Assembly (NCBI RefSeq): GCF_002927635.1
Contig: NZ_PRDS01000004.1
Span: 62,001 to 126,000 of the forward strand
Direction: 5' to 3'
Length of the DNA stretch: 64,000 nucleotides
Source: Albidovulum inexpectatum
GTDB taxonomy: Bacteria; Pseudomonadota; Alphaproteobacteria; Rhodobacterales; Rhodobacteraceae
Every line of letters begins with the position of its first letter. Position 1 is the stretch's first letter. A model generated the notes under the pieces. The model made no database searches, had not been told where the DNA came from, and was given only the letters and a program-made list of their open reading frames with translations. Position numbers and translations under genes: made by a program. Of this stretch, positions 10,213 through 21,391 are shown in pieces.

Positions 10213-11088
10213 ATGAACGACACAACCAAACGCATCGTCGCGCTGGTCGATGGATCGATCTATTCGGCCAGCGTCTGCGAACACGCGTCATGGCTGGCCG
10301 GGCGCACCGGTGCGCCGGTCGAGCTGATCCACGTTCTGGGCCGGCGCGAGGCGCCCGAACAGGCCGACCTGTCGGGCGCGATCCGGCTGGGCGCGCGCAG
10401 CGCGCTGATGGAGGAGCTGGCCGAGCTGGACGCGCGCCGCGCGCGGCTGGCGGCCGAACGGGGCCGCGCGATCCTGGACGACGCGCGCGCCATTGTCGAA
10501 CGGGCGGGCGTGCCCGTCACCGCCCGGCTGCTGCATGGCGATCTGCTGGAAGTCCTGCCCGAGCTGGAGGCGCAGGCGCGCGTCCTGATGATCGGCAAGC
10601 GCGGCGAGGCGGCGGATTTCGCGCGGATGCATCTGGGGTCGAACCTGGAACGCATCGTGCGCGCCAGCCACCGCCCCGTTCTGGTGACCGCGCGCGCCTT
10701 CCGCCCGATCGAAAAGGTGCTGATCGCCCATGACGGCGGCGCCTCGGCCCGCATCGCGGTCGAGCATGTCGCCAACAGCCCGGCCTTTCGCGGTCTGAAG
10801 GCGCATGTCGTCACCGTGGGCCAGCCCGCCGAGCGCGCGCGCAACTGGCTGGAGTCCGCCGAGGCCCGGCTGGCCGGCGCGGGGATCGAGGCCAGCGCCT
10901 CGGTCCTGCAGGGCGAGCCCGCGCAGGTTCTGGGCCGTCTGGTCGAGGAGGCGCAGTTCGACATGCTGGTCATGGGGGCCTATGCCCATTCGCGGCTGCG
11001 CAGCCTGTTCATCGGCTCGACCACCACCGAGATGATCCGCACCTGCCGCGTTTCGGTCCTGCTGTTCCGCGAATCCGTCAAAGAGTGA
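10213..11088 (+). CDS. Tandem-domain universal stress protein (UspE-like)
   Basis: Universal stress protein of 291 residues made of two UspA folds, about residues 1-150 and 160-291. The second domain retains a good nucleotide loop, [21 protein letters not shown]. The first ([20 protein letters not shown]) is diverged, the usual asymmetry of UspE-like proteins. Its start has AAGGGGCAGG six to sixteen bases upstream and lies 16 bp behind the SulP gene, so it is read as the second gene of a SulP-usp unit. An RpoE-type promoter for the next gene overlaps its stop codon. Confidence 0.9.
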
Positions 11089-11115
11089 TCCGAACCGCCC
11101 GACGGTCCGTAATCA
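11086..11115 (+). promoter_or_regulatory. Putative RpoE promoter of the fasciclin gene
   Basis: -35 TGATCC at 11086-11091, 18-bp spacer, -10 TAATCA at 11110-11115. The same hexamer and spacer recur upstream of rpoE, of the divergent FAD-oxidoreductase operon and of the GPx-like gene in this window. TGATCC is the known -35 element of the Rhodobacter singlet-oxygen sigma factor RpoE. The element overlaps the stop codon of the preceding usp gene. Confidence 0.75.
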
Positions 11116-11149
11116 CCGCACCAGAACGGATCAACAGGGAGAGATCACC

Positions 11150-11647
11150 ATGCTTCGCAGAACCTTCATTGCCGCCACCACCGCCCTTGGCATCGTCGGC
11201 GCGGCCGGCTGCGTGATGGCCGATGGCCACATGGCGTCCAAGGACATCGTCGATACCGCCGTCGCGGCGGGCAGCTTCAACACGCTGGTTGCCGCCGTTC
11301 AGGCCGCGGGGCTGGTCGATACGCTGAAGGGGCCCGGCCCGTTCACCGTCTTTGCGCCCACCGACGAGGCCTTTGCCAAGCTGCCCGAGGGCACGGTCGA
11401 GAACCTTCTGAAACCCGAGAACAAGGACACGCTGGTGGCGATCCTGACCTACCACGTCGTGCCGGGCAAGGTGATGTCGGGCGATCTGCAGGACGGCATG
11501 AAGGCCGCCACGGTGCAGGGTTCGGACGTCACGATCAGCCTGATGGGCGGCGCCAAGGTGAATGACGCCAACATCGTGCAGGCCGATATCGAGGCCTCGA
11601 ACGGCGTCATCCATGTCATCGACTCGGTGATCATGCCGCCGATGTGA
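11150..11647 (+). CDS. Secreted fasciclin (FAS1) domain protein
   Basis: Exported single-FAS1-domain protein of 165 residues. The N-terminal signal ([20 protein letters not shown]) could be cleaved by signal peptidase I at VMADG; a Cys after AAG also allows a lipoprotein reading. The FAS1 boxes are clear: [17 protein letters not shown] (H1), [11 protein letters not shown] (YH), and [13 protein letters not shown] (H2). AGGGAGAG lies just before the ATG. A TGATCC-N18-TAATCA promoter sits about 35 bp upstream and a strong terminator 70 bp downstream, so it appears monocistronic and part of the singlet-oxygen regulon. FAS1 domains mediate adhesion or protein contacts; the periplasmic role here is unknown. 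Confidence 0.9.
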
Positions 11648-11715
11648 TCGGCGGCGTCGCGGGGCGGACAGGGCCGGGCCGGTGCCGCCACTCACGTTCA
11701 TCGAACCCGGCTGTG

Positions 11716-11748
11716 GGCGGCCCGAGGATGTCTCGGGCCGCCTCTTCC
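11716..11748 (+). terminator. Terminator behind the fasciclin gene
   Basis: A perfect 11-bp stem (11716-11726 with 11732-11742) closes the loop GATGT and is followed by TCTTCC. It lies 69 bp behind the fasciclin stop and is the strongest hairpin of this intergenic stretch. It argues against reading 11682-11840 as a small coding frame. Confidence 0.65.
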
Positions 11749-11836
11749 GCGTCTGGCGCGAAAGCGTGGCCGTGCTGCGCGATGCACCTGGCCGGGCGGA
11801 TGCGCGCCAGATGCCGCTTTTCCCGCCAGAGACGCC

Positions 11837-12025
11837 ATGAAGATGCGCCGCAAGGGCAATCTGCCCGTCAAGACCTGCGCGATCTGCGGGCGCCCCTTTG
11901 CGTGGCGCCGGAAATGGGCCCGGGTCTGGGACGAGGTGCGGTATTGTTCCGAGCGCTGCCGCGCGCAGCGCCGGTCAGCCGCCCACGATGATGGCCACGA
12001 TCAGGCAGGCGATCGCGCCCGATGA
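11837..12025 (+). CDS. Small DUF2256 protein with four conserved cysteines
   Basis: A 62-residue protein of the DUF2256 family. It has the typical Lys/Arg-rich start ([14 protein letters not shown]), Cys14 and Cys17 as CxxC, then [19 protein letters not shown] with Cys37 and Cys41 as CxxxC, which suggests a small zinc-binding module. The last 15 or so residues are Asp/His/Arg-rich and not conserved. Its 3' end overlaps the end of the convergent DUF3429 gene by about 50 bp. DUF2256 genes commonly lie near cryptochrome/photolyase genes in proteobacteria; here cryB is 1.2 kb away. Function unknown. Its own promoter was not found. Confidence 0.85.
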
Positions 12026-12424
12026 CAGGAACAGGCGCAGGCGCGGATACCAAGGGGGCGCTTCGGCCCGCGAGACGGTGGAAAGCTCGAAGACCAGCAG
12101 CCCCGCAAGCGCCACGGCCAGCAGGCCAAGGCCGATGCGCGGTTCCAGCAGCGGGGCGATCAGCCCGATGGTCGGGGGAACGATCCCCACCGCGGCCAGC
12201 CGGCCCAGGGACGGCGCCGCATCGGACAGAAGGATCATCGCCCAGCGGGCCCCGGCCATGAAGCCCAGGATCACCGTTCCCCATGCGACAAGCGCCTGCA
12301 TCGCCAGGAGCCGGTCATAGGACGGGCCCGATACCCACACGATAAGCGTCAGACCGGCAAAGGGCACAAGGCCCAGAAGGCCCAGAAGCGTCGCGGATCG
12401 GCCCGCCTGCATCCGCCGGCTCAT
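11975..12424 (-). CDS. DUF3429 membrane protein
   Basis: A 149-residue inner-membrane protein with about four to five hydrophobic spans, matching DUF3429 in length and in the Gly-rich segment [12 protein letters not shown]. The start ATG at 12424 overlaps the stop of the GPx-like gene (ATGA), so the two are translationally coupled and share the RpoE-type promoter at 13024-13053. The upstream extension of the open frame is Arg-rich and lies inside the GPx-like gene, so it is not used. Its tail overlaps the convergent DUF2256 gene. Function unknown; context points to membrane protection during photo-oxidative stress (inference). Confidence 0.8.
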
Positions 12425-13002
12425 GCCGCACCCTGTGCCAGCGCCCGTTCGATCAGGGCGCGGGCGCGTTCGTCGGTGGGTTTCAGACGACTTGGCATCC
12501 AGGCGATCACGCGCCCGTCCCGGCCGATCAGGTACTTGTTGAAGTTCCAGCGCACGGATTCGCCCGTTTCGGCGCGCGCCCATTGAAAGAACGGATGCGC
12601 CCGCGTGCCGCGCACATGGACCGGCGCGGTCATCGGGAAATCGACGCCATAGGTCAGTTCGCAGAATTCCTTGATCTTGCCGGCCTCGTCATATTCCTGC
12701 GCGAAATCGTCCGAGGGCACGCCAAGCACCACCAGCCCCCGGGCGCGGTAATCGGTCCAGACCTGGACCAGATCGCGATATTGCGGGGTGAAGCCGCAGA
12801 ACGACGCGGTGTTGACGACCAGAACCACCTTGCCGCGGAACTGCTCCATCGGCAGGGGGCCGCCCTCGAGCGCCTCGAAGCCGAAATCCCAGGCGGTTTC
12901 GGCCCGCGCGGGCATCGCGGTCAGCGCACAGGCCGAGACGATCAACACGATCGTTCCCCGGCGGGTGGTTGCGGCGATTTCGGGCCTGGACATTCGTGGC
13001 AT
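12421..13002 (-). CDS. Exported glutathione peroxidase-like protein
   Basis: Thiol peroxidase of the GPx family, 193 residues, with a signal peptide ending MPARAE near residue 35, so it acts in the periplasm. The peroxidatic cysteine is Cys69 in VNTASFCGFTPQY, and WNFNKYLIGRDG near the C-terminus holds the conserved Trp and Asn. The second box reads VLGVPSDDFAQEY where classical enzymes have PCNQFGxQEP, so the tetrad Gln is replaced; this is a variant subgroup. An RpoE-type promoter (TGATCC-N18-TAAATC) lies about 20 bp upstream. It overlaps the DUF3429 gene by ATGA. Likely reduces lipid or other hydroperoxides formed by singlet oxygen; the reductant may not be glutathione. Confidence 0.88.
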   Translation of the reverse strand: MPRMSRPEIAATTRRGTIVLIVSACALTAMPARAETAWDFGFEALEGGPLPMEQFRGKVVLVVNTASFCGFTPQYRDLVQVWTDYRARGLVVLGVPSDDFAQEYDEAGKIKEFCELTYGVDFPMTAPVHVRGTRAHPFFQWARAETGESVRWNFNKYLIGRDGRVIAWMPSRLKPTDERARALIERALAQGAA

Positions 13003-13023
13003 GGCGTTTGCTCCCCTTTGTCC

Positions 13024-13053
13024 GATTTACGCATGGACCGCGCCCGCGGATCA
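13024..13053 (-). promoter_or_regulatory. Putative RpoE promoter of the GPx-DUF3429 operon
   Basis: Read on the minus strand: -35 TGATCC at 13053-13048, 18-bp spacer, -10 TAAATC at 13029-13024, then 21 bp to the GPx start at 13002. Hexamer and spacing equal those of the other three RpoE-type sites here. Confidence 0.75.
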
Positions 13054-13064
13054 ATGCCCCGCCC

Positions 13065-14591
13065 CTAGACGGTGCGCCCGTCCTGCAGGTCGCGCGACAG
13101 CGCATCGGCCTGATCCAGGATCTCGGCCCGGGTCGCGGCATCGGTGCGCGCCCAGTTGGCCATGACCGGCCCCATCCTGCGGTTGTGCGACAGAAGGTCG
13201 GCGTGCCGGTCCAGGAAATGCCAGTAAAGCAGGTTGAAGGGGCAGGCGCGCGGCCCGGTGCGCCGGTCCACGCGGTAATGGCAGCCCGCGCAGTAATCCG
13301 ACATCCGGTCGATATAGCGCCCCGAAGAGATATAGGGTTTGGACGCCACCAGCCCGCCATCGGCGAATTGGCTCATCCCGATCGTGTTCGGGGCCTCGAC
13401 CCATTCGAAGGCATCGAAATAGACCGACAGGTACCATTCATGCACCTGTGCGGGGTCGATCCCGGCCAGCAGCGCGAAATTGCCCGTCACCATCAGCCGC
13501 TGGATATGATGGGCATAGGCCAGGTCGCGGGTCTGGCCGACGACATGGGCCATGCAGTTCATGCGTGTTTCCGCCCCCCAATACAGCGGCGGTAGGTCGC
13601 GGTCATGCCCCAGCGCATTGCGGGTGACATAGTCCGGCCCTTCGCGCCACCAGATGCCGCGCACATATTCCCGCCAGCCCAGGATCTGGCGGATGAACCC
13701 TTCGGCCGCGTTCAGGGCCACGCGGCCCGCCCGCCATTCGGACTCGGCCCGGCGGCAGACCTCCAGCGGGTCCAGAAGGCCCAGGTTCAGGCAGGGCGAC
13801 AGAAGCGAATGATACATGAACGGGTTGTCCGCCAGCATCGCGTCCTGAAAGTCGCCGAAATGCGGCAGCGCATGGGTCATGAAATGGTCAAGCAGGATCT
13901 GCGCCTGATCCGCGTCGGTGGGCAGGCCAAAGGGCCGCAGGCGCCCGAAATGGTCGCCAAAGCGTGCCTCGACCAGATCCAGTACCTCGTTCACCACCTG
14001 ATCGGGCGGAAAGTCCGGGGGGCGCGGCGCGAACAGATCGGCGCGCGGGGGCTTGCGGTTTTCGGAATCATAGTTCCAGCGGCCGCCTTCGGGCCGGTCG
14101 CCCTGCATCAGGATGCCGGTCTTGCGCCGCATCAGCCGATAGAACCATTCCATCCGCAATTCGCGCCGCCCCGTGGCCCAGGCGTCGAATTCGGCCGGGG
14201 TCGCGATGAAGCGGTCGTCCTCGTGCCAGTCCAGCGCCAGCGGCAGATCGTCGATCGCGGCAAACAGGCGCCAGTCGCCAGGTCGCGTGGCAAGGACGGT
14301 TTCGGCCCCGTGCTGGCCCGCGCGGCGCATCAGCTCTGCGGGGATCGAGCCTGCATTGTCGGGATCGTCCAGCCGCGTGTAATCGACCCGCCAGCCGGCC
14401 GCGCGCAGGCGGGCGGCGAACTTGCGCATCGCGGCAAGGATCAGGGCGATCTTGCGGGGATGGTGGCGAACATGGGTCGCCTCTGCCATGACCTCGGCCA
14501 TCACGACGCGGTCATGGGCGGGGTCGGCCGCGCGCAGGGCGGCCATGTCGGGGGTCAGCTGATCGCCAAGGACCAGGACCAGCCTTACCAC
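13065..14591 (-). CDS. cryB: Iron-sulfur bacterial cryptochrome/(6-4) photolyase (FeS-BCP, CryB/PhrB type)
   Basis: Flavoprotein of the FeS-BCP family, 508 residues; members repair (6-4) photoproducts with light and/or act as light sensors. The N-terminal Rossmann-like domain starts VRLVLVLGDQL, which holds the antenna chromophore in relatives. The C-terminal FAD domain includes GWREYVRGIWW and EWYLSVYFDAFEWVE. Four cysteines, Cys346, Cys434, Cys437 and Cys450, have the spacing of the [4Fe-4S] ligands of Agrobacterium PhrB. The 5' end overlaps the stop of the SDR gene by 7 bp, making it the fourth gene of rpoE-chrR-SDR-cryB. The same order of sigma factor, anti-sigma factor and photolyase is known from Rhodobacter. 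Confidence 0.93.
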   Translation of the reverse strand: MVRLVLVLGDQLTPDMAALRAADPAHDRVVMAEVMAEATHVRHHPRKIALILAAMRKFAARLRAAGWRVDYTRLDDPDNAGSIPAELMRRAGQHGAETVLATRPGDWRLFAAIDDLPLALDWHEDDRFIATPAEFDAWATGRRELRMEWFYRLMRRKTGILMQGDRPEGGRWNYDSENRKPPRADLFAPRPPDFPPDQVVNEVLDLVEARFGDHFGRLRPFGLPTDADQAQILLDHFMTHALPHFGDFQDAMLADNPFMYHSLLSPCLNLGLLDPLEVCRRAESEWRAGRVALNAAEGFIRQILGWREYVRGIWWREGPDYVTRNALGHDRDLPPLYWGAETRMNCMAHVVGQTRDLAYAHHIQRLMVTGNFALLAGIDPAQVHEWYLSVYFDAFEWVEAPNTIGMSQFADGGLVASKPYISSGRYIDRMSDYCAGCHYRVDRRTGPRACPFNLLYWHFLDRHADLLSHNRRMGPVMANWARTDAATRAEILDQADALSRDLQDGRTV

Positions 14592-15247
14592 GGGATCTCC
14601 TTGCCGGCCCAGTCCAGGAACCGCCCGCTATCGCCCGGGCCAAGCCCGTCCATCACGTCCAGCAGGTTGCGCGCGGCCTGGTCGGGCGTGACCCTGCGGT
14701 GGCCGGTGTAATCCGCCGTAAAGGGGGTGGCGACCGTGCCGGGATGCAGCGCGACCAGGCAGGCCTGCCGGTGCGTGCGTGCGATCTCGATCGCGGCGGT
14801 GTGGACGATCTGGTTCGCCGCGGCCTTCGAGGCCCGATAGGAATACCACCCGCCCAGCCGGTTGTCGCCGATCGAGCCCACGCGCGCCGTCAGCACGCCC
14901 AGGACCGAGCGCGCATCGCGCGGCAGAAGCCGGGGTGCGTGGCGCAAGATCAGCGCCGGGCCGATCGCGTTGACGGCCATGACTTGTGCCATCGCCGGGG
15001 CCGAGATCTGCGACAGGGACTTTTCCGGCCGCCCGCCCGGCGGGGCAAGGATGCCGGTGGCGACGATGACGCGCGAGAACGGCCCCGACAGGGCCGACAG
15101 GCAGGGATCGACCGTCTCGGGGCGGGTCAGGTCCAGCCCGTCGCGGCGGCGCGACAGGCCGGTCACCTGATAGCCGCGATCGACCAGGGCGCCGGTCAGC
15201 GCCGCGCCGATCCCGCCGGAAGCGCCGATGATCAGCGCCCGCGCCAT
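14585..15247 (-). CDS. Short-chain dehydrogenase (C-factor-like SDR) in the rpoE operon
   Basis: NAD(P)-dependent SDR of 220 residues. The cofactor loop is IIGASGGIGAAL at the N-terminus and the active-site YxxxK is YSYRASKAA. The short length and the HPGTVATPFT segment after the active site match the C-factor/carbonyl-reductase-like SDR group often found beside cryB and DUF2256. It starts 4 bp after the chrR stop and overlaps the cryB start, so it is co-transcribed from the rpoE promoter. Substrate unknown; detoxification of carbonyls from oxidised lipids is a reasonable guess. Confidence 0.87.
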   Translation of the reverse strand: MARALIIGASGGIGAALTGALVDRGYQVTGLSRRRDGLDLTRPETVDPCLSALSGPFSRVIVATGILAPPGGRPEKSLSQISAPAMAQVMAVNAIGPALILRHAPRLLPRDARSVLGVLTARVGSIGDNRLGGWYSYRASKAAANQIVHTAAIEIARTHRQACLVALHPGTVATPFTADYTGHRRVTPDQAARNLLDVMDGLGPGDSGRFLDWAGKEIPW

Positions 15248-15251
15248 GACC

Positions 15252-15893
15252 TCAGATCCGCAGGAAGGGCTGGGCCAGCCGCGGGATCAGGCCCGAGAAT
15301 TTCAGTGGCGCGTCCGTCGCGGCCAGGCAGATACAGGGCTCGTCCGGCCCGGCAACAGGCACATGAGTCAGGTTCTCGTCCGCGACCTCGACATCGCCAA
15401 CGCCGAAATGGTCCGTCTCGTCCCGGAAGCTGCCCTGCAGGACCAGCGTGGCCTCGAGGCCGCGATGGCTGTGTTCGGGCATGGCCTGGCCGGGCGGGAT
15501 GAACAGCAGCCGCGCCGAGCCGTCCGGGCCGTCATGGAGGATGCTTTGCCGCACGCCCATTCCCAGCGACCGCCAGCGCGGCTCGGGCGCGCCGATCGCC
15601 TCGGCCAGCGGACCGGGATAGATGCCCTGCCGGCGCGGCGCGGGGCGGACATGGTCGGGCGGGGCGTCGTCGAGACGGGCGAACAGCCGTTCGCGCAGGT
15701 CGGCCGACAGGGGGGCCGCGTCCACATCCTCGAGCGCGGCACCGGCCAGCACCTCGTGCGTGCCCATCAGGGCGCGGCATTCGTCGCACATCGAGACATG
15801 TGTCGCCACGACCAGGGCAAAGGGATGGGCAAGCGCCCCTGCGACATAGTCGCGCATCATCCAGTCGGGGATGTGGTGGCGGATGTCGCTCAT
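15252..15893 (-). CDS. chrR: Zinc-dependent anti-sigma factor ChrR
   Basis: Cytoplasmic anti-sigma factor (213 residues) that holds RpoE inactive until singlet oxygen appears. The N-terminal ZAS domain has His6, His32, Cys36 and Cys39, the His-x3-Cys-x2-Cys zinc signature. The C-terminal cupin-like domain has His140, His142, Glu146 and His176, one position off the Rhodobacter sphaeroides ChrR metal ligands, so both zinc sites appear intact. Its ATG overlaps the rpoE stop (ATGA), which couples the dose of sigma and anti-sigma factor. Confidence 0.95.
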   Translation of the reverse strand: MSDIRHHIPDWMMRDYVAGALAHPFALVVATHVSMCDECRALMGTHEVLAGAALEDVDAAPLSADLRERLFARLDDAPPDHVRPAPRRQGIYPGPLAEAIGAPEPRWRSLGMGVRQSILHDGPDGSARLLFIPPGQAMPEHSHRGLEATLVLQGSFRDETDHFGVGDVEVADENLTHVPVAGPDEPCICLAATDAPLKFSGLIPRLAQPFLRI

Positions 15894-16459
15894 GCTTTTC
15901 GTAGCTCCTTCAGCTCGTGCCGCAGCCGTTGCAGGCCAAGACGCAGGCGTGACTTGATCGTCCCAAGCGGCAGGCCGGTCTCTTCCTGGATTTCGACATG
16001 GGTCATTTCGCCCAGGTAAGCCTTTTCGATCATGTGCCGCTGATCGAGGTTCAGGCGGGCAAGGGCGGCGCGCAGCCGCGCGGCCTCCTGATCCAGCGCC
16101 ACCGCTTCGGCGGCGTCGTCGGCGTTGCGCTCTTCGCCGACGATCTCTTCGGGTTCGGGACGCGCGCGGCGCCGGAACAGGTCTATCTGGCGGTTGCGCG
16201 CAATGCGATAGATCCAGGCCGAGACCTGCGCCCGGCCGGGATCGAAATGGTGCGCCTTGTGCCAGATCGTCAACATCACGTCCTGCACGATATCCTCGGC
16301 TTCGGCCGCCGAGGCGCCGCCCCGCATGGCGACGGCCTTCAGCCGCGGACCGTAATGGTCGAACAGCCTTGCAAAGGCCGTGCGGTCCCGGCGATCGCGC
16401 ACCGCGATCATCCATTCGGTCTGGGGGCAGGGTTTTTCCGTGCCCGAGGTGTCGTCCAT
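15890..16459 (-). CDS. rpoE: Singlet-oxygen-responsive ECF sigma factor RpoE
   Basis: Group IV (ECF) sigma factor of 189 residues that directs the singlet-oxygen response. Region 2 covers ARLFDHYGPRLKAVAMRGG to WIYRIARNRQIDLFRR; region 4 has EMTHVEIQEETGLPLGTIKSRLR, the -35-binding helix-turn-helix. The start is the ATG at 16459 behind GGGAA. The open frame continues upstream to 16720, but that stretch contains the promoters and is low in family features. A TGATCC-N18-TATTCG site on the minus strand at 16575-16604 suggests autoregulation. Followed by chrR with an ATGA overlap. Confidence 0.95.
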   Translation of the reverse strand: MDDTSGTEKPCPQTEWMIAVRDRRDRTAFARLFDHYGPRLKAVAMRGGASAAEAEDIVQDVMLTIWHKAHHFDPGRAQVSAWIYRIARNRQIDLFRRRARPEPEEIVGEERNADDAAEAVALDQEAARLRAALARLNLDQRHMIEKAYLGEMTHVEIQEETGLPLGTIKSRLRLGLQRLRHELKELRKA

Positions 16460-16574
16460 GTCGTTCCCATCTGCCTGTGGCTTGCGCCAGGGCGAATGCC
16501 CGGGCCGGCCGGCACGCCTTTCGACGCGGTTCGGAAACACTGTGTCAGGCTGGGCGATCTGGTTCAACATGCCA

Positions 16575-16604
16575 CGAATACGCGGCCGCGATCCGGGCGG
16601 ATCA
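16575..16604 (-). promoter_or_regulatory. Putative autoregulated RpoE promoter of rpoE-chrR-SDR-cryB
   Basis: Minus strand: -35 TGATCC at 16604-16599, 18-bp spacer, -10 TATTCG at 16580-16575. The predicted start lies about 110 bp upstream of the rpoE ATG. It forms a divergent pair with the plus-strand site 16670-16699. Confidence 0.7.
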
Positions 16605-16669
16605 CCTTTGGGCGAAAAAACCTGTCGGGGAAGTTTCGCGCACGGGATCCGCGGAATGATTGCGCGGAA

Positions 16670-16699
16670 TGATCCGGCCGGCATCGTCCGGCGTATCCC
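16670..16699 (+). promoter_or_regulatory. Putative RpoE promoter of the FAD-oxidoreductase operon
   Basis: -35 TGATCC at 16670-16675, 18-bp spacer, -10 TATCCC at 16694-16699, 35 bp before the start at 16734. The -10 is the weakest of the four sites found, but hexamer and spacing are identical. Confidence 0.65.
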
Positions 16700-16733: not shown

Positions 16734-18026
16734 ATGTCATTCGATGCAGCTTTCGTTCAACGCAGGCGCGTGGCCGTCATCGGCGCGGGCGTATCGGGCC
16801 TGGCGGCGGCCTATCATCTGGCCGACGACCATGACGTAACGCTGTTCGAGGCCGAACCGCGCCTGGGCGGCCATGCACGCACGGTGATGGCGGGGCGCCG
16901 GGGCGATCAGCCGGTCGATACCGGGTTCATCGTCTTCAACCACGCCAATTACCCCAATCTGACGGCGATGTTCGATGCGCTCTCGGTGCCCGTGCAGGAA
17001 AGCTGCATGAGCTTTGGCGCCACGATCGACGATGGCAAGGTCGAGTATCGCCTGCACGATCTGGCCGGGCTGGTGGCGCAGAAACGCAACCTGATGCGCC
17101 CCGGCTATCTGCGGATGCTGCGCGACATCATGCGGTTCCACGCCCATGCCGAGCGCGCGGCGCGGGACGATACCATGACGCTGGCCGACCTGGTCGAGAC
17201 GCTGCGGCTGGGCCGGTGGTTCCGCGACTATTACATGCTGCCGATCTGCGGGGCGATCTGGTCCACGCCGCCGGGCCAGGTCGGGCGCTTTCCGGCGCGG
17301 GCGTTGGTCGATTTCTTTCGCAATCATGGCCTGCTGGGCATCACGGGCCAGCATCAATGGTACACGGTCCGGGGCGGCAGCCGCGAATATGTCCGCCGGG
17401 TCGAGGCCCATCTGGCCGCGCGGGGCGCGACCATCCGCGCGGGCTGTCCGGTGGACGCGATCGTGCGGGACGAAGCCGGCGTGACCATCCATGCCCAGGG
17501 GGCCGAGGCGCGTTTCGACGCGGTGATCCTGGCCGTTCACAGCGACGTGGCTTTGCGGATGCTGCATTCGCCCAGCCCCGAGGAACGCGCGATCCTTTCG
17601 GCCGTGCGCTATCAGGACAACCGCGTGGTGCTGCATTCCGACACCGACCAGATGCCGCGGCGTCGGCGCGCCTGGGCCTCGTGGGTCTATCGCGCAAAAA
17701 CCGGAGAGGACGCGCCCCATATCAATGTCACCTACTGGATGAACCGGTTGCAGAACATTCCCGACGATGACCCGCTGTTCGTCTCGCTGAACCCCGAGCG
17801 CGAGATCCCCGAACACCTGGTCCACGACGACACGGTCTTTCGCCACCCGGTCTTTGACCAGGCGGCATTCGCGGCGCAGGCGCGGATCGGCGGGATCCAG
17901 GGCCGCAACCGCACATGGTTCGCGGGCGCCTGGACCGGCTATGGCTTTCACGAGGACGGGTTCACCAGCGGCCTGAACGCCGCCCGCGCGATCCGGGACC
18001 AACGGTCGGAGGCCGTCGCGGCATGA
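16734..18026 (+). CDS. FAD/NAD(P)-binding oxidoreductase of the RpoE-ChrR cluster
   Basis: Flavoprotein of the amine oxidase/phytoene desaturase-like fold, 430 residues. It has a dinucleotide loop VIGAGVSGLAAAYHL (Gly17, Gly19, Gly22), an FEAEPRLGGHARTV segment after strand 2, and a C-terminal FAD box (TWFAGAWTGYGFHEDGFTSG). The operon FAD protein-DUF1365-MFS-DUF3833-SDR is typical of loci that modify unsaturated membrane fatty acids; in Rhodobacter, the homologues of this protein and the next were reported to influence singlet-oxygen signalling and unusual fatty acid formation (recalled, not checked). ATG 16734 follows AAGGGA. The reaction is not known from sequence. Confidence 0.9.
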   Translation: MSFDAAFVQRRRVAVIGAGVSGLAAAYHLADDHDVTLFEAEPRLGGHARTVMAGRRGDQPVDTGFIVFNHANYPNLTAMFDALSVPVQESCMSFGATIDDGKVEYRLHDLAGLVAQKRNLMRPGYLRMLRDIMRFHAHAERAARDDTMTLADLVETLRLGRWFRDYYMLPICGAIWSTPPGQVGRFPARALVDFFRNHGLLGITGQHQWYTVRGGSREYVRRVEAHLAARGATIRAGCPVDAIVRDEAGVTIHAQGAEARFDAVILAVHSDVALRMLHSPSPEERAILSAVRYQDNRVVLHSDTDQMPRRRRAWASWVYRAKTGEDAPHINVTYWMNRLQNIPDDDPLFVSLNPEREIPEHLVHDDTVFRHPVFDQAAFAAQARIGGIQGRNRTWFAGAWTGYGFHEDGFTSGLNAARAIRDQRSEAVAA

Positions 18027-18775
18027 CCAACTGGCCCGAAATCGTCGCCGGCCAGACCACCCATGCGCGGCGCGGGGCGATCGCCCATGCCTTTCGCCAC
18101 CGGGTCGATTACGTGCTGATCGATCCCGACGCGACGGCGGGGCCCGCGCTGTTCTCGCGCAACCGGTTCAATCTGGCGACGGTGCGGGACCGCGATCACG
18201 GCGGGCCAAAGGATCCTCGGCGCGGCGCCGAATGGGCGCGCGCGGTGCTGGAGGCGCGCGGCGTCAGGGTCGCGCCGGGCGATCTGCGCCTGCTGACGCA
18301 GCCGCGTTTCCTGAACCTTGTCTTCAACCCCGTCAGCTTCTGGCTGGCCTTTCGGGACGGCGCGCTGATCGCCGCGATCGCCGAGGTCAACAACACCTTC
18401 GGCGACCGCCACAGCTATTTCATCGCCCGTCCCGATCTGCGGCCGATCCGGCCCACCGACCGGCTGCGGGCCGAAAAGGTCCTGCATGTCTCGCCGTTCC
18501 AGCGCGTGGCGGGCGGCTACGAATTCGCCTTTGACATCCGCGACGACCGGATCGGCATCCGCATCCTGTTTGCCGATGGCAGGGACGGGCTGATCGCGAC
18601 GCTGTCCGGCCCGCGCCGTCCGATGACGAATGCGCGCCTGTTGCGCGCGGCGCTGGCCCGGCCCGGCGGCGGCTGGCGGACGCTGGCGCTGATCCATTGG
18701 CAGGCGCTGTTCCTGTTTCTCAAGCGCGCGCCCTTCCGGTCGCGCCCGCCCGCGCCCGAAGGGGACGTGTCGTGA
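18023..18775 (+). CDS. DUF1365 protein
   Basis: DUF1365 family protein of 250 residues. The start (EIVAGQTTHARRG) and core elements HAFRHRVDYVLID, PRFLNLVFNPVSFWLAF, AEVNNTFGDRHSYF and AEKVLHVSPFQ are the family's conserved blocks. The NPVSFWLA and HVSPF motifs with their His and Asn residues suggest a metal or substrate site, but the activity is unproven. The start overlaps the previous stop (ATGA) and the end overlaps the MFS start (GTGA), so it is translated as part of one tightly coupled operon. Linked in many genomes to cyclopropane or other fatty-acid modification. Confidence 0.9.
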   Translation: MTNWPEIVAGQTTHARRGAIAHAFRHRVDYVLIDPDATAGPALFSRNRFNLATVRDRDHGGPKDPRRGAEWARAVLEARGVRVAPGDLRLLTQPRFLNLVFNPVSFWLAFRDGALIAAIAEVNNTFGDRHSYFIARPDLRPIRPTDRLRAEKVLHVSPFQRVAGGYEFAFDIRDDRIGIRILFADGRDGLIATLSGPRRPMTNARLLRAALARPGGGWRTLALIHWQALFLFLKRAPFRSRPPAPEGDVS

Positions 18776-20049
18776 CCGCGCCCGCGACATCGCCCGCGGA
18801 ATCGCCTGTCGCGCGTGGCGGGGCGGTCGATCCGGCCACGGGCGCGCGGGTCGCGGTCTTTGGCGCGATGCTGGCCACGGCCGGGTTGCCGCTTTACATC
18901 CATCTGCCGGTTTATGCCGGGCAGGTCCTGGGCCTGCCCCTGGCGACCCTGGGTGTCGTGCTGATGGCGATGCGGCTGTTCGATCTGGCGCAGGACCCGT
19001 TTCTGGGCCGGCTCACCGATCGGCTTGCCCTGTCGGGGGCGACATTGGCGCGGCTTTCCGCGCTGGGACTGGCGGCGGGGTTCCTGATGCTGTTTGTGGC
19101 GCCGATGCCCGGCCTTGCCTGGCTGGTTGCCGCGCTGATGCTGCTGTTCACGGCCTTCAGCCTTGCGACGATCCTGCTGTATGGCCGGGGCGTGGCGATC
19201 GGAGGCGGGCGGCACGGGCAGCTTGCGCTGGCCGGCTGGCGCGAGGCCGGGATCATCGCGGGCATCGTTCTGGCCGCGGCGCTGCCCGATCTTCTGGGCC
19301 GCGCCGTGCCGGGGGCAGGCGCCTGGCGCGTCTTCGGGGTGGTGCTGGCGGCTCTGTGCCTGGTCGCGCTGGCCGTATCGCGTGGGCTGTGGTCGGGGCC
19401 GGTCGCACCAGCCGCGCCGCTGACGCGCGCGGCGCTGAGCCGATCGGGCGCGGGCGGGCTGATCGCGCTGGCCTTCGTCAACGCGCTGCCGGTGGCCTTT
19501 ACCTCGACGCTGTTCCTGTTCTTCGTGGGCGATTATCTGCGCCTGCCCGGCATGGCGGGGGTCTTCCTGATCCTGTTCTTCGTGGCCGCGGGCCTGTCGG
19601 CGCCGCTGTGGTCGCGGCTGGCCCGCCGGGCCGGCGCGCGGCCGACGCTGATCGCGGGGATGGCGCTGGCCGTGGCGGCCTTTGTCTTTGCGGGCGTCCT
19701 GCAGCCCGGCGACGCTGTGGCCTTTGCGGCGATCTCGGCGGCGTCGGGTGCGGCACTGGGGGCGGATATGGTGATCCTGCCGGCGCTGTTCTCGGCCGCG
19801 CTGGCCCGCGCGGGGCTTGCGCCGGGATTGGCCTTTGGCCTGTGGAGCCTTGCGGGCAAGGCGGCGCTGGGGCTGGCGGCGGGCGTCGCGCTGCCCCTGC
19901 TGCAGATCGCGGGATTCGAGCCGGGCGGAGACAGCCCGGCCCGGGCGATGGGTGCCCTGCTGATCCTGTATGCCGGACTGCCCTGCATCCTGAAACTTGG
20001 CGTGATCCTGTGGGTCGCGCGTCACCCCCTGGACGGAGAAAGCGCATGA
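18772..20049 (+). CDS. MFS transporter of the RpoE-ChrR-linked operon
   Basis: Major facilitator protein of 425 residues, about twelve hydrophobic spans; the second half ends with the strongly hydrophobic ALLILYAGLPCILKLGVIL. The segment FDLAQDPFLGRLTDRL after helix 2 is the usual MFS loop A (D/N-x-DP-x-x-GxxxD-R) and resembles the glycoside-pentoside-hexuronide branch. It starts with GTG, overlapping the DUF1365 stop (GTGA), and its stop overlaps the DUF3833 start. Genes of this type are found in DUF1365/DUF3833 operons; the cargo may be a lipid or lipid precursor (inference). Confidence 0.87.
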   Translation: MTAPATSPAESPVARGGAVDPATGARVAVFGAMLATAGLPLYIHLPVYAGQVLGLPLATLGVVLMAMRLFDLAQDPFLGRLTDRLALSGATLARLSALGLAAGFLMLFVAPMPGLAWLVAALMLLFTAFSLATILLYGRGVAIGGGRHGQLALAGWREAGIIAGIVLAAALPDLLGRAVPGAGAWRVFGVVLAALCLVALAVSRGLWSGPVAPAAPLTRAALSRSGAGGLIALAFVNALPVAFTSTLFLFFVGDYLRLPGMAGVFLILFFVAAGLSAPLWSRLARRAGARPTLIAGMALAVAAFVFAGVLQPGDAVAFAAISAASGAALGADMVILPALFSAALARAGLAPGLAFGLWSLAGKAALGLAAGVALPLLQIAGFEPGGDSPARAMGALLILYAGLPCILKLGVILWVARHPLDGESA

Positions 20050-20648
20050 AAACGCTGCTTGTTCTGGCCCTTCTTGCACTGGCGCTGATCGCCGTGCAGC
20101 GGGGCTTTCTTTCCTTCTCGGCGCAAAGCGTCACGGATTATGCAGATACCGGGCCGCCGATGGACATCCGGCGCGTGCTTTCGGGGCCGATGATCTCCGA
20201 AGGCGTGATCTTTGGCCCCACGGGGCGGGTGACCACCCGCTTCGTCGCCCGGATGGAGGGCAGCTGGACCGGCAATTCCGGCACGCTGAGCGAACATTTC
20301 ATCTATGACAACGGCACCGACCAGCGCCGCCTGTGGCATCTGAAGGTGAACGGCGATGGCAGTTTCGTCGCCACGGCCGATGACATCATCGGCACGGGCC
20401 GGGGCGAACAGGCGGGCGCCGTGGCCCATCTGACCTATCGCATCCGCCTGCCCGAAAGCGCGGGCGGGCATGTTCTGGACGTCACCGATTGGCTGTACCT
20501 GATGGACAACGGCACGGTGATGAACCGGTCCGAGATGCGCAAGTTCGGCATCAGGGTCGCCGAGCTGATCGCCACGATGCGCCCCGATACCGAGGCGCGC
20601 ATGTCCCCGGCCCCTGTCGGGACCGAGGCGATGGAGCCCGCGCAATGA
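20046..20648 (+). CDS. DUF3833 protein, membrane-anchored or exported
   Basis: A 200-residue DUF3833 protein. Residues 1-20 form one hydrophobic helix (signal or anchor), then a lipocalin-like beta-rich domain. Conserved-looking blocks are SEGVIFGPTGRVTTRF, LSEHFIYDNGTDQRRLWHL and DVTDWLYLMDNGTVMNRSEM. ATGA overlaps join it to the MFS gene in front and to the SDR behind. The family is consistently linked to DUF1365 genes, and lipid carriage in the periplasm is plausible but untested. Confidence 0.85.
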   Translation: MKTLLVLALLALALIAVQRGFLSFSAQSVTDYADTGPPMDIRRVLSGPMISEGVIFGPTGRVTTRFVARMEGSWTGNSGTLSEHFIYDNGTDQRRLWHLKVNGDGSFVATADDIIGTGRGEQAGAVAHLTYRIRLPESAGGHVLDVTDWLYLMDNGTVMNRSEMRKFGIRVAELIATMRPDTEARMSPAPVGTEAMEPAQ

Positions 20649-21391
20649 GCCGCATCGCCGGGCGGGAATTCTGGATCATCGGCGCCAGCGAGGGCCTTGG
20701 CCGGGCGCTGGCGCGCGGGATCGTGGCGCGGGGCGGGCGGGTCGTCCTGTCGGCGCGCAGTGCCGGGCGCCTTCAGGATCTGGCCGCCGAGCTGGCCCCG
20801 CGGGCGCGGGTCGTGACGCTGGACGTGACCGACGACGATTCGGCCGATCGGGCCGTGCGCGAGGCCGGCAGCACGGACGGCGTGATCTATTCCGCCGGCC
20901 GCTATGAGCCGATGCGCGCGCGGGACTGGGACGCGGCCGAATCCGTCGCCATGGCCCAGGTCAACTTCGTCGGCGCGCTGCGCGTCCTGGGCCGGGTCGT
21001 GCCCGAAATGGCGCGGCGCGGGCGGGGGCAGGTGATGATCGTCGGGTCGCTTTCGGCCCATCGCGGCCTGCCCGGGGCGATCGGCTATGGCGCGTCGAAG
21101 GCGGCGCTGCTGTCGCTGGCCCAGACGATGCGGGCCGATCTGGCGGGAACGGGTGTGACCGTGCAGATCGCCAATCCCGGCTTCATCCGCACCCGCCTGA
21201 CCGAAAAGAACGATTTCGACATGCCCAGCCTGATGGACCCCGAAGACGCCGCCGCGCGCATCCTGGACCAGATCGAAAGCGGCCGGTTCGAGACGAACTT
21301 CCCCAGGCCCTTTGCGCTGCTTTTCACGCTGGGCCGGTTCCTGCCGCTGTCCTGGTTCCACCGGATATTCCGGCGCGCTCAGAAGGATTGA
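20645..21391 (+). CDS. Short-chain dehydrogenase, last gene of the RpoE-linked operon
   Basis: NAD(P)-dependent SDR of 248 residues: cofactor loop IIGASEGLGRALARG, catalytic Ser in VGSLSAHRGLPGAIGYGASKAA with the YxxxK Tyr/Lys, and NPGFIRTRLT after it. The C-terminus LFTLGRFLPLSWFHRIFRR is hydrophobic and basic and may touch the membrane. It closes the five-gene operon with an ATGA overlap to DUF3833. Its 3' end overlaps the convergent beta-galactosidase gene by 13 bp. Substrate unknown; a lipid carbonyl is likely given the operon. Confidence 0.87.
   Translation: MSRIAGREFWIIGASEGLGRALARGIVARGGRVVLSARSAGRLQDLAAELAPRARVVTLDVTDDDSADRAVREAGSTDGVIYSAGRYEPMRARDWDAAESVAMAQVNFVGALRVLGRVVPEMARRGRGQVMIVGSLSAHRGLPGAIGYGASKAALLSLAQTMRADLAGTGVTVQIANPGFIRTRLTEKNDFDMPSLMDPEDAAARILDQIESGRFETNFPRPFALLFTLGRFLPLSWFHRIFRRAQKD

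Follow-up and report, generated by a model that had tools for sequence, protein, structure and literature searches.

Where does RpoE begin? The sigma factor RpoE and its anti-sigma factor ChrR form the model singlet-oxygen circuit, and in Albidovulum inexpectatum their genes lie in a 64,000-nucleotide stretch of contig NZ_PRDS01000004.1 (hereafter the window) that carries four copies of the element TGATCC-N16-CGTA. The CGTA precedes the annotated start by 38 nucleotides (nt) at a fasciclin gene, 25 at a glutathione peroxidase (GPx) gene, 38 at a FAD amine oxidase gene, and 119 at rpoE. What kind of element is this, and what does the longer interval in front of rpoE contain? We consider it likely that the four sites are promoters of RpoE, an extracytoplasmic function (ECF) sigma factor of group ECF11, that the rpoE feedback mRNA is leaderless or nearly so and yields an N-terminally extended RpoE, and that an internal start gives the short form. 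We infer from the DNA sequence where transcription starts, that the long form is translated, and what it does.

In the window, the rpoE promoter reads CGTATTCGTGGC-ATG, and this ATG (16570-16568, minus strand) stands in frame with rpoE, which would give a protein of 226 instead of 189 residues. An earlier sequence-only reading of the locus was silent on this ATG; its position in frame and 8 nt after the −10 element of rpoE is new here. It was followed in 109 Rhodobacterales loci, the window included, that combine the motif with an RpoE of at least 50% identity. The locus set had been enlarged (322 of 394 genomes matched, and 60 more were fetched, among the matches listed). Loci with an RpoE below 50% identity, L084-L095, and L159, whose length points to the contig of L017, were left out of the 109. 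At ten loci of at least 50% identity the motif was missing from the 330 nt inspected; in L053 and L285 this was because the sequence ended. The ATG follows CGTA after 8 nt in 99 loci, 9 nt in seven, 10 nt in one, and 11 nt in one; a single locus has none. It is in frame in 106 of the 109 loci, the frame being kept at an offset of 9 nt as well, and the reading frame is free of stops in all 106. Divided by three, almost all of the CGTA-to-rpoE intervals leave the same remainder, because the ATG 8 nt after CGTA stands in frame with rpoE.

The extension has 37 residues in the window and about 22-54 in relatives. The 106 sequences are all different and fall into 86 clusters, the extension taking 21 lengths. 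Among 4525 codons in frame there is no stop, whereas the two remaining frames have 202 and 160, each in 4419 codons. None of 44 ufaD promoters, which RpoE is predicted to use as well, has an ATG at +8, and their distances are distributed 12/19/13 over the three remainders, so that no frame is kept. Plasmid loci were sampled too (7 fetched of 28 matches): four carry the motif (Qingshengfaniella, Shinella, Phyllobacterium, and Aminobacter), each with an in-frame ATG and with a database start (TTG or ATG) 75-146 nt after CGTA. It is strongly supported that the upstream ATG and its open frame constitute a conserved reading frame tied to the rpoE promoter.

A transcription start mapped for another ECF sigma factor lies 6 bp after the −10 box (PMC3420878), and the rpoE transcript should therefore begin near the ATG. 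Because the in-frame, stop-free ATG is conserved at the rpoE promoter and not at ufaD, the feedback mRNA is probably leaderless and encodes the extended RpoE. In the proposed mechanism, ChrR would release RpoE, and RNA polymerase carrying RpoE would transcribe rpoE-chrR-SDR-cryB in a positive feedback. The released RpoE would also drive the divergent ufaD-ufaO operon, the fasciclin gene, and GPx-DUF3429, plus phrA-cfaS and folE2 elsewhere. The products of ufaD-ufaO in Rhodobacter sphaeroides make furan fatty acids, and these products are needed for ChrR turnover. The rpoE transcript would begin at or next to the in-frame ATG, giving a leaderless or near-leaderless mRNA from which RpoE with an N-terminal extension would be made, and an internal start with a Shine-Dalgarno (SD)-like sequence would give the short RpoE that is usually annotated. 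A leaderless operon has been described in R. sphaeroides (PMC3017554); in the titles and abstract openings of the literature searched, there was no description of a leaderless or extended ECF11 RpoE.

Several observations weigh against this interpretation. Three of the 109 loci (L266, L300, and L301) lack an in-frame ATG, and one of these, L300, has the RpoE most similar to that of R. sphaeroides (78%), a species that itself lies outside the locus set. Below 50% identity, nine loci with the motif were inspected individually, L076-L081, L083, and L177 falling outside this inspection; the in-frame ATG is present in five and absent from L061, L062, L175, and L283. Eight motif-less loci of at least 50% identity have upstream sequence, four with a stop shortly upstream and four open; as half of them stay open, loss of the motif and loss of the frame are not always joined. 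The residues of the extension are barely conserved. Six disjoint pairs differ 48/49/67 times by codon position, and purifying selection on the residues was rejected as an explanation, since these pairs give only a weak third-position excess. RpoE of R. sphaeroides has been reported to be stable under singlet oxygen, the form not being stated (PMC3818230), and the authors of the work on EcfF of Bradyrhizobium japonicum took the overlap between transcription start and ATG as a reason for a downstream start (PMC3420878). Among homologues from relatives, the motif is directly upstream of 0 of 3 SDR, 0 of 2 CryB, and 0 of 4 PhrA genes.

Start-like codons inside the long frame bear on the second form. 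They are clustered, with 86 in the best 5-codon window compared with a shuffled mean of 58 and a maximum of 70 (500 shuffles), and 57 of the 80 that have an SD-like sequence lie 6-13 codons before the conserved core. As these codons cluster in front of the core, it is suggested that the annotated short RpoE is made too. At least one internal start with an SD-like sequence is found in 74 of the 106 loci, and 32 have none.

It is possible, if on the unlikely side, that the upstream ATG merely loads ribosomes, translation of the leader being coupled to the internal start and the extension itself having no function. The almost free drift of the extension residues, under a constant ATG, frame, and openness, fits such coupling; however, coupling alone would tolerate a stop near the internal start, and none of the 106 loci has one. 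Slightly less probable is an upstream ATG that is the sole real start, so that annotated RpoE starts are wrong and a single, longer RpoE exists. The frame kept in 106 of 109 loci would agree with this, as would the database starts of the four plasmid loci, which vary in codon and place, but the clustering of start-like codons before the core speaks for a second start, as do the 74 loci with an SD-like internal start (against the 32 without). A leaderless message for the extended protein together with an internal start for the short one is the reading that we prefer.

The promoters themselves can be judged by number, spacing, and place. The window holds exactly four copies of TGATCC-N18-TAW, the form given in the sequence-only reading, with the positions and strands reported there, against a mean of 0.25 and a largest value of 2 in 100 dinucleotide shuffles. 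Bare TGATCC has 63 copies where 47.9 are expected, so the spacing carries the signal: TGATCC-Nk-CGTA has four matches at k=16 and no more than one at every other k from 8 to 30. All four sites have CGTA(A/T) after TGATCC-N16; the −10 forms of the sequence-only reading were written two bases too late. At 11086, the site opens with the TGA that also ends the Usp gene upstream, and the stretch between rpoE and the FAD gene holds two sites pointing outward in opposite directions. The same consensus has been published for a relative from P. syringae (PMC5507510), and in Shewanella TGATCC and CGTATT/CGTAAT stand upstream of mapped starts (PMC4336711).

How far does the regulon extend? Across the genome (3.0 Mb, 27 contigs), 13 TGATCC-N18-TAW matches were obtained in the scan that the sequence-only reading had proposed; six stand before the four units of the window, phrA-cfaS, and folE2, and the other seven are sequence matches only. 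TGATCC-N16-CGTA occurs at eight sites, including the four of the window. One (C3:279113) precedes a photolyase gene followed by a CMAS gene (phrA-cfaS), and another (C3:73320) precedes folE2. A third, exact copy at C5:122859 (L011 1501-1527) falls where an iron-containing alcohol dehydrogenase gene ends and immediately precedes a putative S49 peptidase gene, which is a possible further target. The match at C14:779 was rejected as a promoter because it is antisense within an open reading frame (ORF) that resembles a transposition ATPase. The count of eight at spacing 16 compares with a mean of 3.2 and a maximum of 7 over 20 other spacings (8 to 28; Poisson P 0.017). This enrichment is only modest, and the case for the promoters therefore rests on position and conservation.

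The sequence-only reading had described the sites as a local singlet-oxygen regulon, and four of the eight genomic sites do lie within 5.6 kb. A local, self-contained regulon is nevertheless very improbable and was rejected, because the same element stands before phrA-cfaS and folE2 on another contig. Both are R. sphaeroides RpoE targets: phrA, cfaS, and folE2 appear in the target table for that species, as do the fasciclin gene RSP_1409 and RSP_1087-1091 (PMC7074977 Table 1), so the regulon is the known one rather than a local one. Most of it is already known; the R. sphaeroides table does not list GPx-DUF3429, but GPx is a reported target in Shewanella.

Conservation was scored with TGATCY-N16-CGTA at the rpoE, ufaD, and fasciclin loci of relatives. 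Of 57 rpoE loci, 52 have the motif within 250 nt of the gene, and none has it at another spacing between 8 and 24; of 53 ufaD loci, 44 have it within 250 nt, compared with one at spacing 15 and five at spacing 17. It is upstream of the fasciclin gene in 5 of 11 loci. Nine of 45 GPx homologues have it (45 of 48 loci, L191, L198, and L199 left out) and none has it at twelve other spacings; on a narrower stretch the count is 4 of 35 (8 skipped). For CfaS homologues, many of which sit within the FAD operon, the motif is directly upstream in 0 of 35. Genomes of the same genus with this RpoE hold 2.09 TGATCC-N16-CGTA per Mb compared with 0.91 in those without it (9 vs 13 genomes, own included; P 0.0005), and the values are 2.02 and 1.11 per Mb when the own genome and genomes less than 90% complete are removed (7 vs 10; P 0.005). 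Chance matches devoid of promoter function are hardly conceivable: spacing 16 is only modestly enriched genome-wide, but the window has four sites for 0.25 expected, and spacing and place are strictly conserved in relatives. Motif, spacing, and conservation, with gene identities from Pfam, uphold RpoE-type promoters directly before the four units that had been named, and it is almost certain that the sites serve the ECF11 sigma factor RpoE (anti-sigma ChrR) as promoters. We infer from this that they are active in A. inexpectatum itself.

Table 1. Predicted promoters and genes around rpoE (window positions)
Feature	Position	Strand	Evidence
Predicted TGATCC-N16-CGTA promoter of fasciclin gene	11086..11111	+	motif; upstream in 5/11 relatives' fasciclin loci
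Fasciclin-domain protein, RSP_1409-like	11150..11647	+	PF02469, 144 bits
DUF3429 protein, inferred start, overlapping GPx stop	11975..12424	-	PF11911, 82 bits
Glutathione peroxidase (GPx)	12421..13002	-	PF00255, 91 bits
Predicted TGATCC-N16-CGTA promoter of GPx-DUF3429	13028..13053	-	motif; before 9/45 GPx homologues
CryB-type photolyase-related protein	13065..14591	-	PF04244, 264 bits
SDR oxidoreductase	14585..15247	-	PF00106
ChrR anti-sigma factor	15252..15893	-	PF12973; TIGR02451 188 bits; 2z2s_B
RpoE short form, 189 aa	15890..16459	-	PF04542, PF08281; best PDB match 2q1z_A
Long RpoE reading frame, 226 aa, from ATG 8 nt after CGTA	15890..16570	-	predicted
Predicted TGATCC-N16-CGTA autoregulatory promoter, rpoE-chrR-SDR-cryB	16579..16604	-	motif; 52/57 relatives' rpoE loci
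Predicted TGATCC-N16-CGTA promoter, ufaD-ufaO-like operon	16670..16695	+	motif; 44/53 relatives' loci
FAD amine oxidase, UfaD/RSP_1091-like	16734..18026	+	PF01593
DUF1365 protein, UfaO/RSP_1090-like, inferred start	18023..18775	+	PF07103, 221 bits
MFS transporter ORF; real start probably further downstream	18697..20049	+	PF13347
DUF3833 protein	20046..20648	+	PF12915
SDR oxidoreductase, inferred start	20645..21391	+	PF00106

Adjacent genes overlap or almost touch in rpoE-chrR-SDR-cryB, GPx-DUF3429, and the FAD set (some starts inferred), and these three are therefore probably operons. The Usp gene upstream of the fasciclin gene was likewise confirmed by Pfam. RpoE is an ECF sigma factor with regions 2 and 4, and its best PDB match is sigmaE of R. 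sphaeroides (E 3.4e-53). ChrR exceeds the TIGR02451 cut-off of 124.5, and the only PDB structures related to it at E 0.001 are chains of R. sphaeroides ChrR. The zinc ligands of both domains are kept (H7, H32, C36, and C39; H141, H143, E147, and H177); eight are named for R. sphaeroides ChrR, where the first four are shifted by one relative to the window protein (PMC6852236). With sigma factor, anti-sigma factor, and their own predicted TGATCC-N16-CGTA promoter all present, RpoE-ChrR of the window fits an ECF11 system.

Similar gene sets occur elsewhere. Within 20 kb, genome G154 has fasciclin, GPx, DUF3429, CryB, SDR, rpoE-chrR, the FAD operon, photolyase, and a cfaS-like gene. A compact stress island is also seen in another genus (L231 2040-14700), with photolyase, chrR-rpoE, the FAD operon, a cfaS-like gene, GPx, DUF3429, CryB, SDR, and fasciclin. 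G320 has rpoE-chrR, the FAD operon, GPx, and DUF3429. In G187, GPx-DUF3429 is grouped with CryB-SDR and fasciclin, and RpoE-type sites precede both GPx and the fasciclin gene. Where GPx stands behind the FAD operon, as in G154 and G320, it lacks a separate site. The window GPx was found in 0 of 21 other genus members searched and has relatives of 67-74% identity in four other genera; either transfer or repeated loss may account for this distribution.

Judged by their sequence, the promoters are real and of a known kind. What is new is the in-frame ATG at the rpoE promoter and, probably, a longer, unannotated form of RpoE. If so, many Rhodobacterales, and the small number of Hyphomicrobiales plasmids sampled, would have wrong or incomplete rpoE start annotations, and the feedback step would gain a translational layer that the papers found do not describe. 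A wider proposal, possible but less likely than not, is that there are two forms of ECF11 RpoE in Alphaproteobacteria, the leaderless feedback mRNA giving mainly RpoE', whose drifting extension may serve as a handle for proteolysis or alter ChrR binding. The sigma factor made under stress would then differ from the basal one, and the circuit would be self-limiting and SigR'-like in an unrelated phylum.

The closest known system is RpoE-ChrR (ECF11) of R. sphaeroides, which shares with the window the sigma/anti-sigma pair, the divergent RSP_1091-1087 operon, and the targets fasciclin RSP_1409, phrA, cfaS, and folE2 (PMC7074977), as well as an RpoE promoter before both operons (PMC3818230). The window differs in having SDR and cryB after chrR in one apparent operon, and GPx-DUF3429 with its own site. 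We take RSP_2389 of R. sphaeroides to be a glutathione peroxidase gene. Its promoter responds to RpoHII (PMC3441632), and cryB of R. sphaeroides, unlike that of the window, belongs to the RpoHII regulon (PMC7074977). Only one strong RpoH was found in the own genome, and at E 1e-60 neither it nor any of 21 further genus members searched shows more than one. The idea that direct RpoE control of GPx and cryB arose through loss of RpoHII was rejected: two RpoH are present in seven of the nine relatives whose GPx has an RpoE-type promoter, and also in G154, G187, and G320, all with close GPx relatives. An RpoH-like sigma factor of 286 aa was noted at C7:31870 (L097; 152 bits vs the RpoH cut-off of 323), and it was dismissed as an RpoE target since no TGATCC was seen upstream on inspection by eye.

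In R. capsulatus, as in the window, GPx and a cryB operon lie beside rpoE-chrR, and in R. capsulatus they are induced by singlet oxygen; that species lacks the RSP_1087-1091 operon (PMC7074977), whereas the window has both these rpoE-chrR neighbours and the FAD operon. RpoE2-ChrR of Shewanella oneidensis likewise uses TGATCC/CGTAW promoters, and its predicted or tested targets include GPx (pgpD), a photolyase-related protein, and SDR, as in the window. There, pgpD is followed by hemH2 instead of DUF3429, and the available sections do not mention a long RpoE2 (PMC4336711). For EcfF of B. japonicum, as is predicted for rpoE here, the feedback mRNA starts at a point that overlaps an in-frame ATG (an annotated one in ecfF), although EcfF belongs to another ECF group and uses another promoter (PMC3420878).

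The nearest parallel for a second sigma form is SigR/SigR' of Streptomyces, which also has an autoregulatory sigma-dependent promoter and an upstream in-frame ATG. The N-terminal extension of SigR' measures 55 or 58 residues, and its anti-sigma factor RsrA is a zinc protein like ChrR. SigR' has been demonstrated to be made and to be unstable, whereas the long RpoE is a prediction (PMC5472188, PMC4921905). In systems of the SigR/SigR' type, Clp proteases degrade the long form. A leaderless start is not mentioned for SigR' in the sections available, and in the window the ATG follows the −10 element by 8 nt. The arrangement typical of SigR/SigR', an upstream in-frame ATG at a sigma-dependent promoter, is present in 106 of the 109 loci, the window being one of them.

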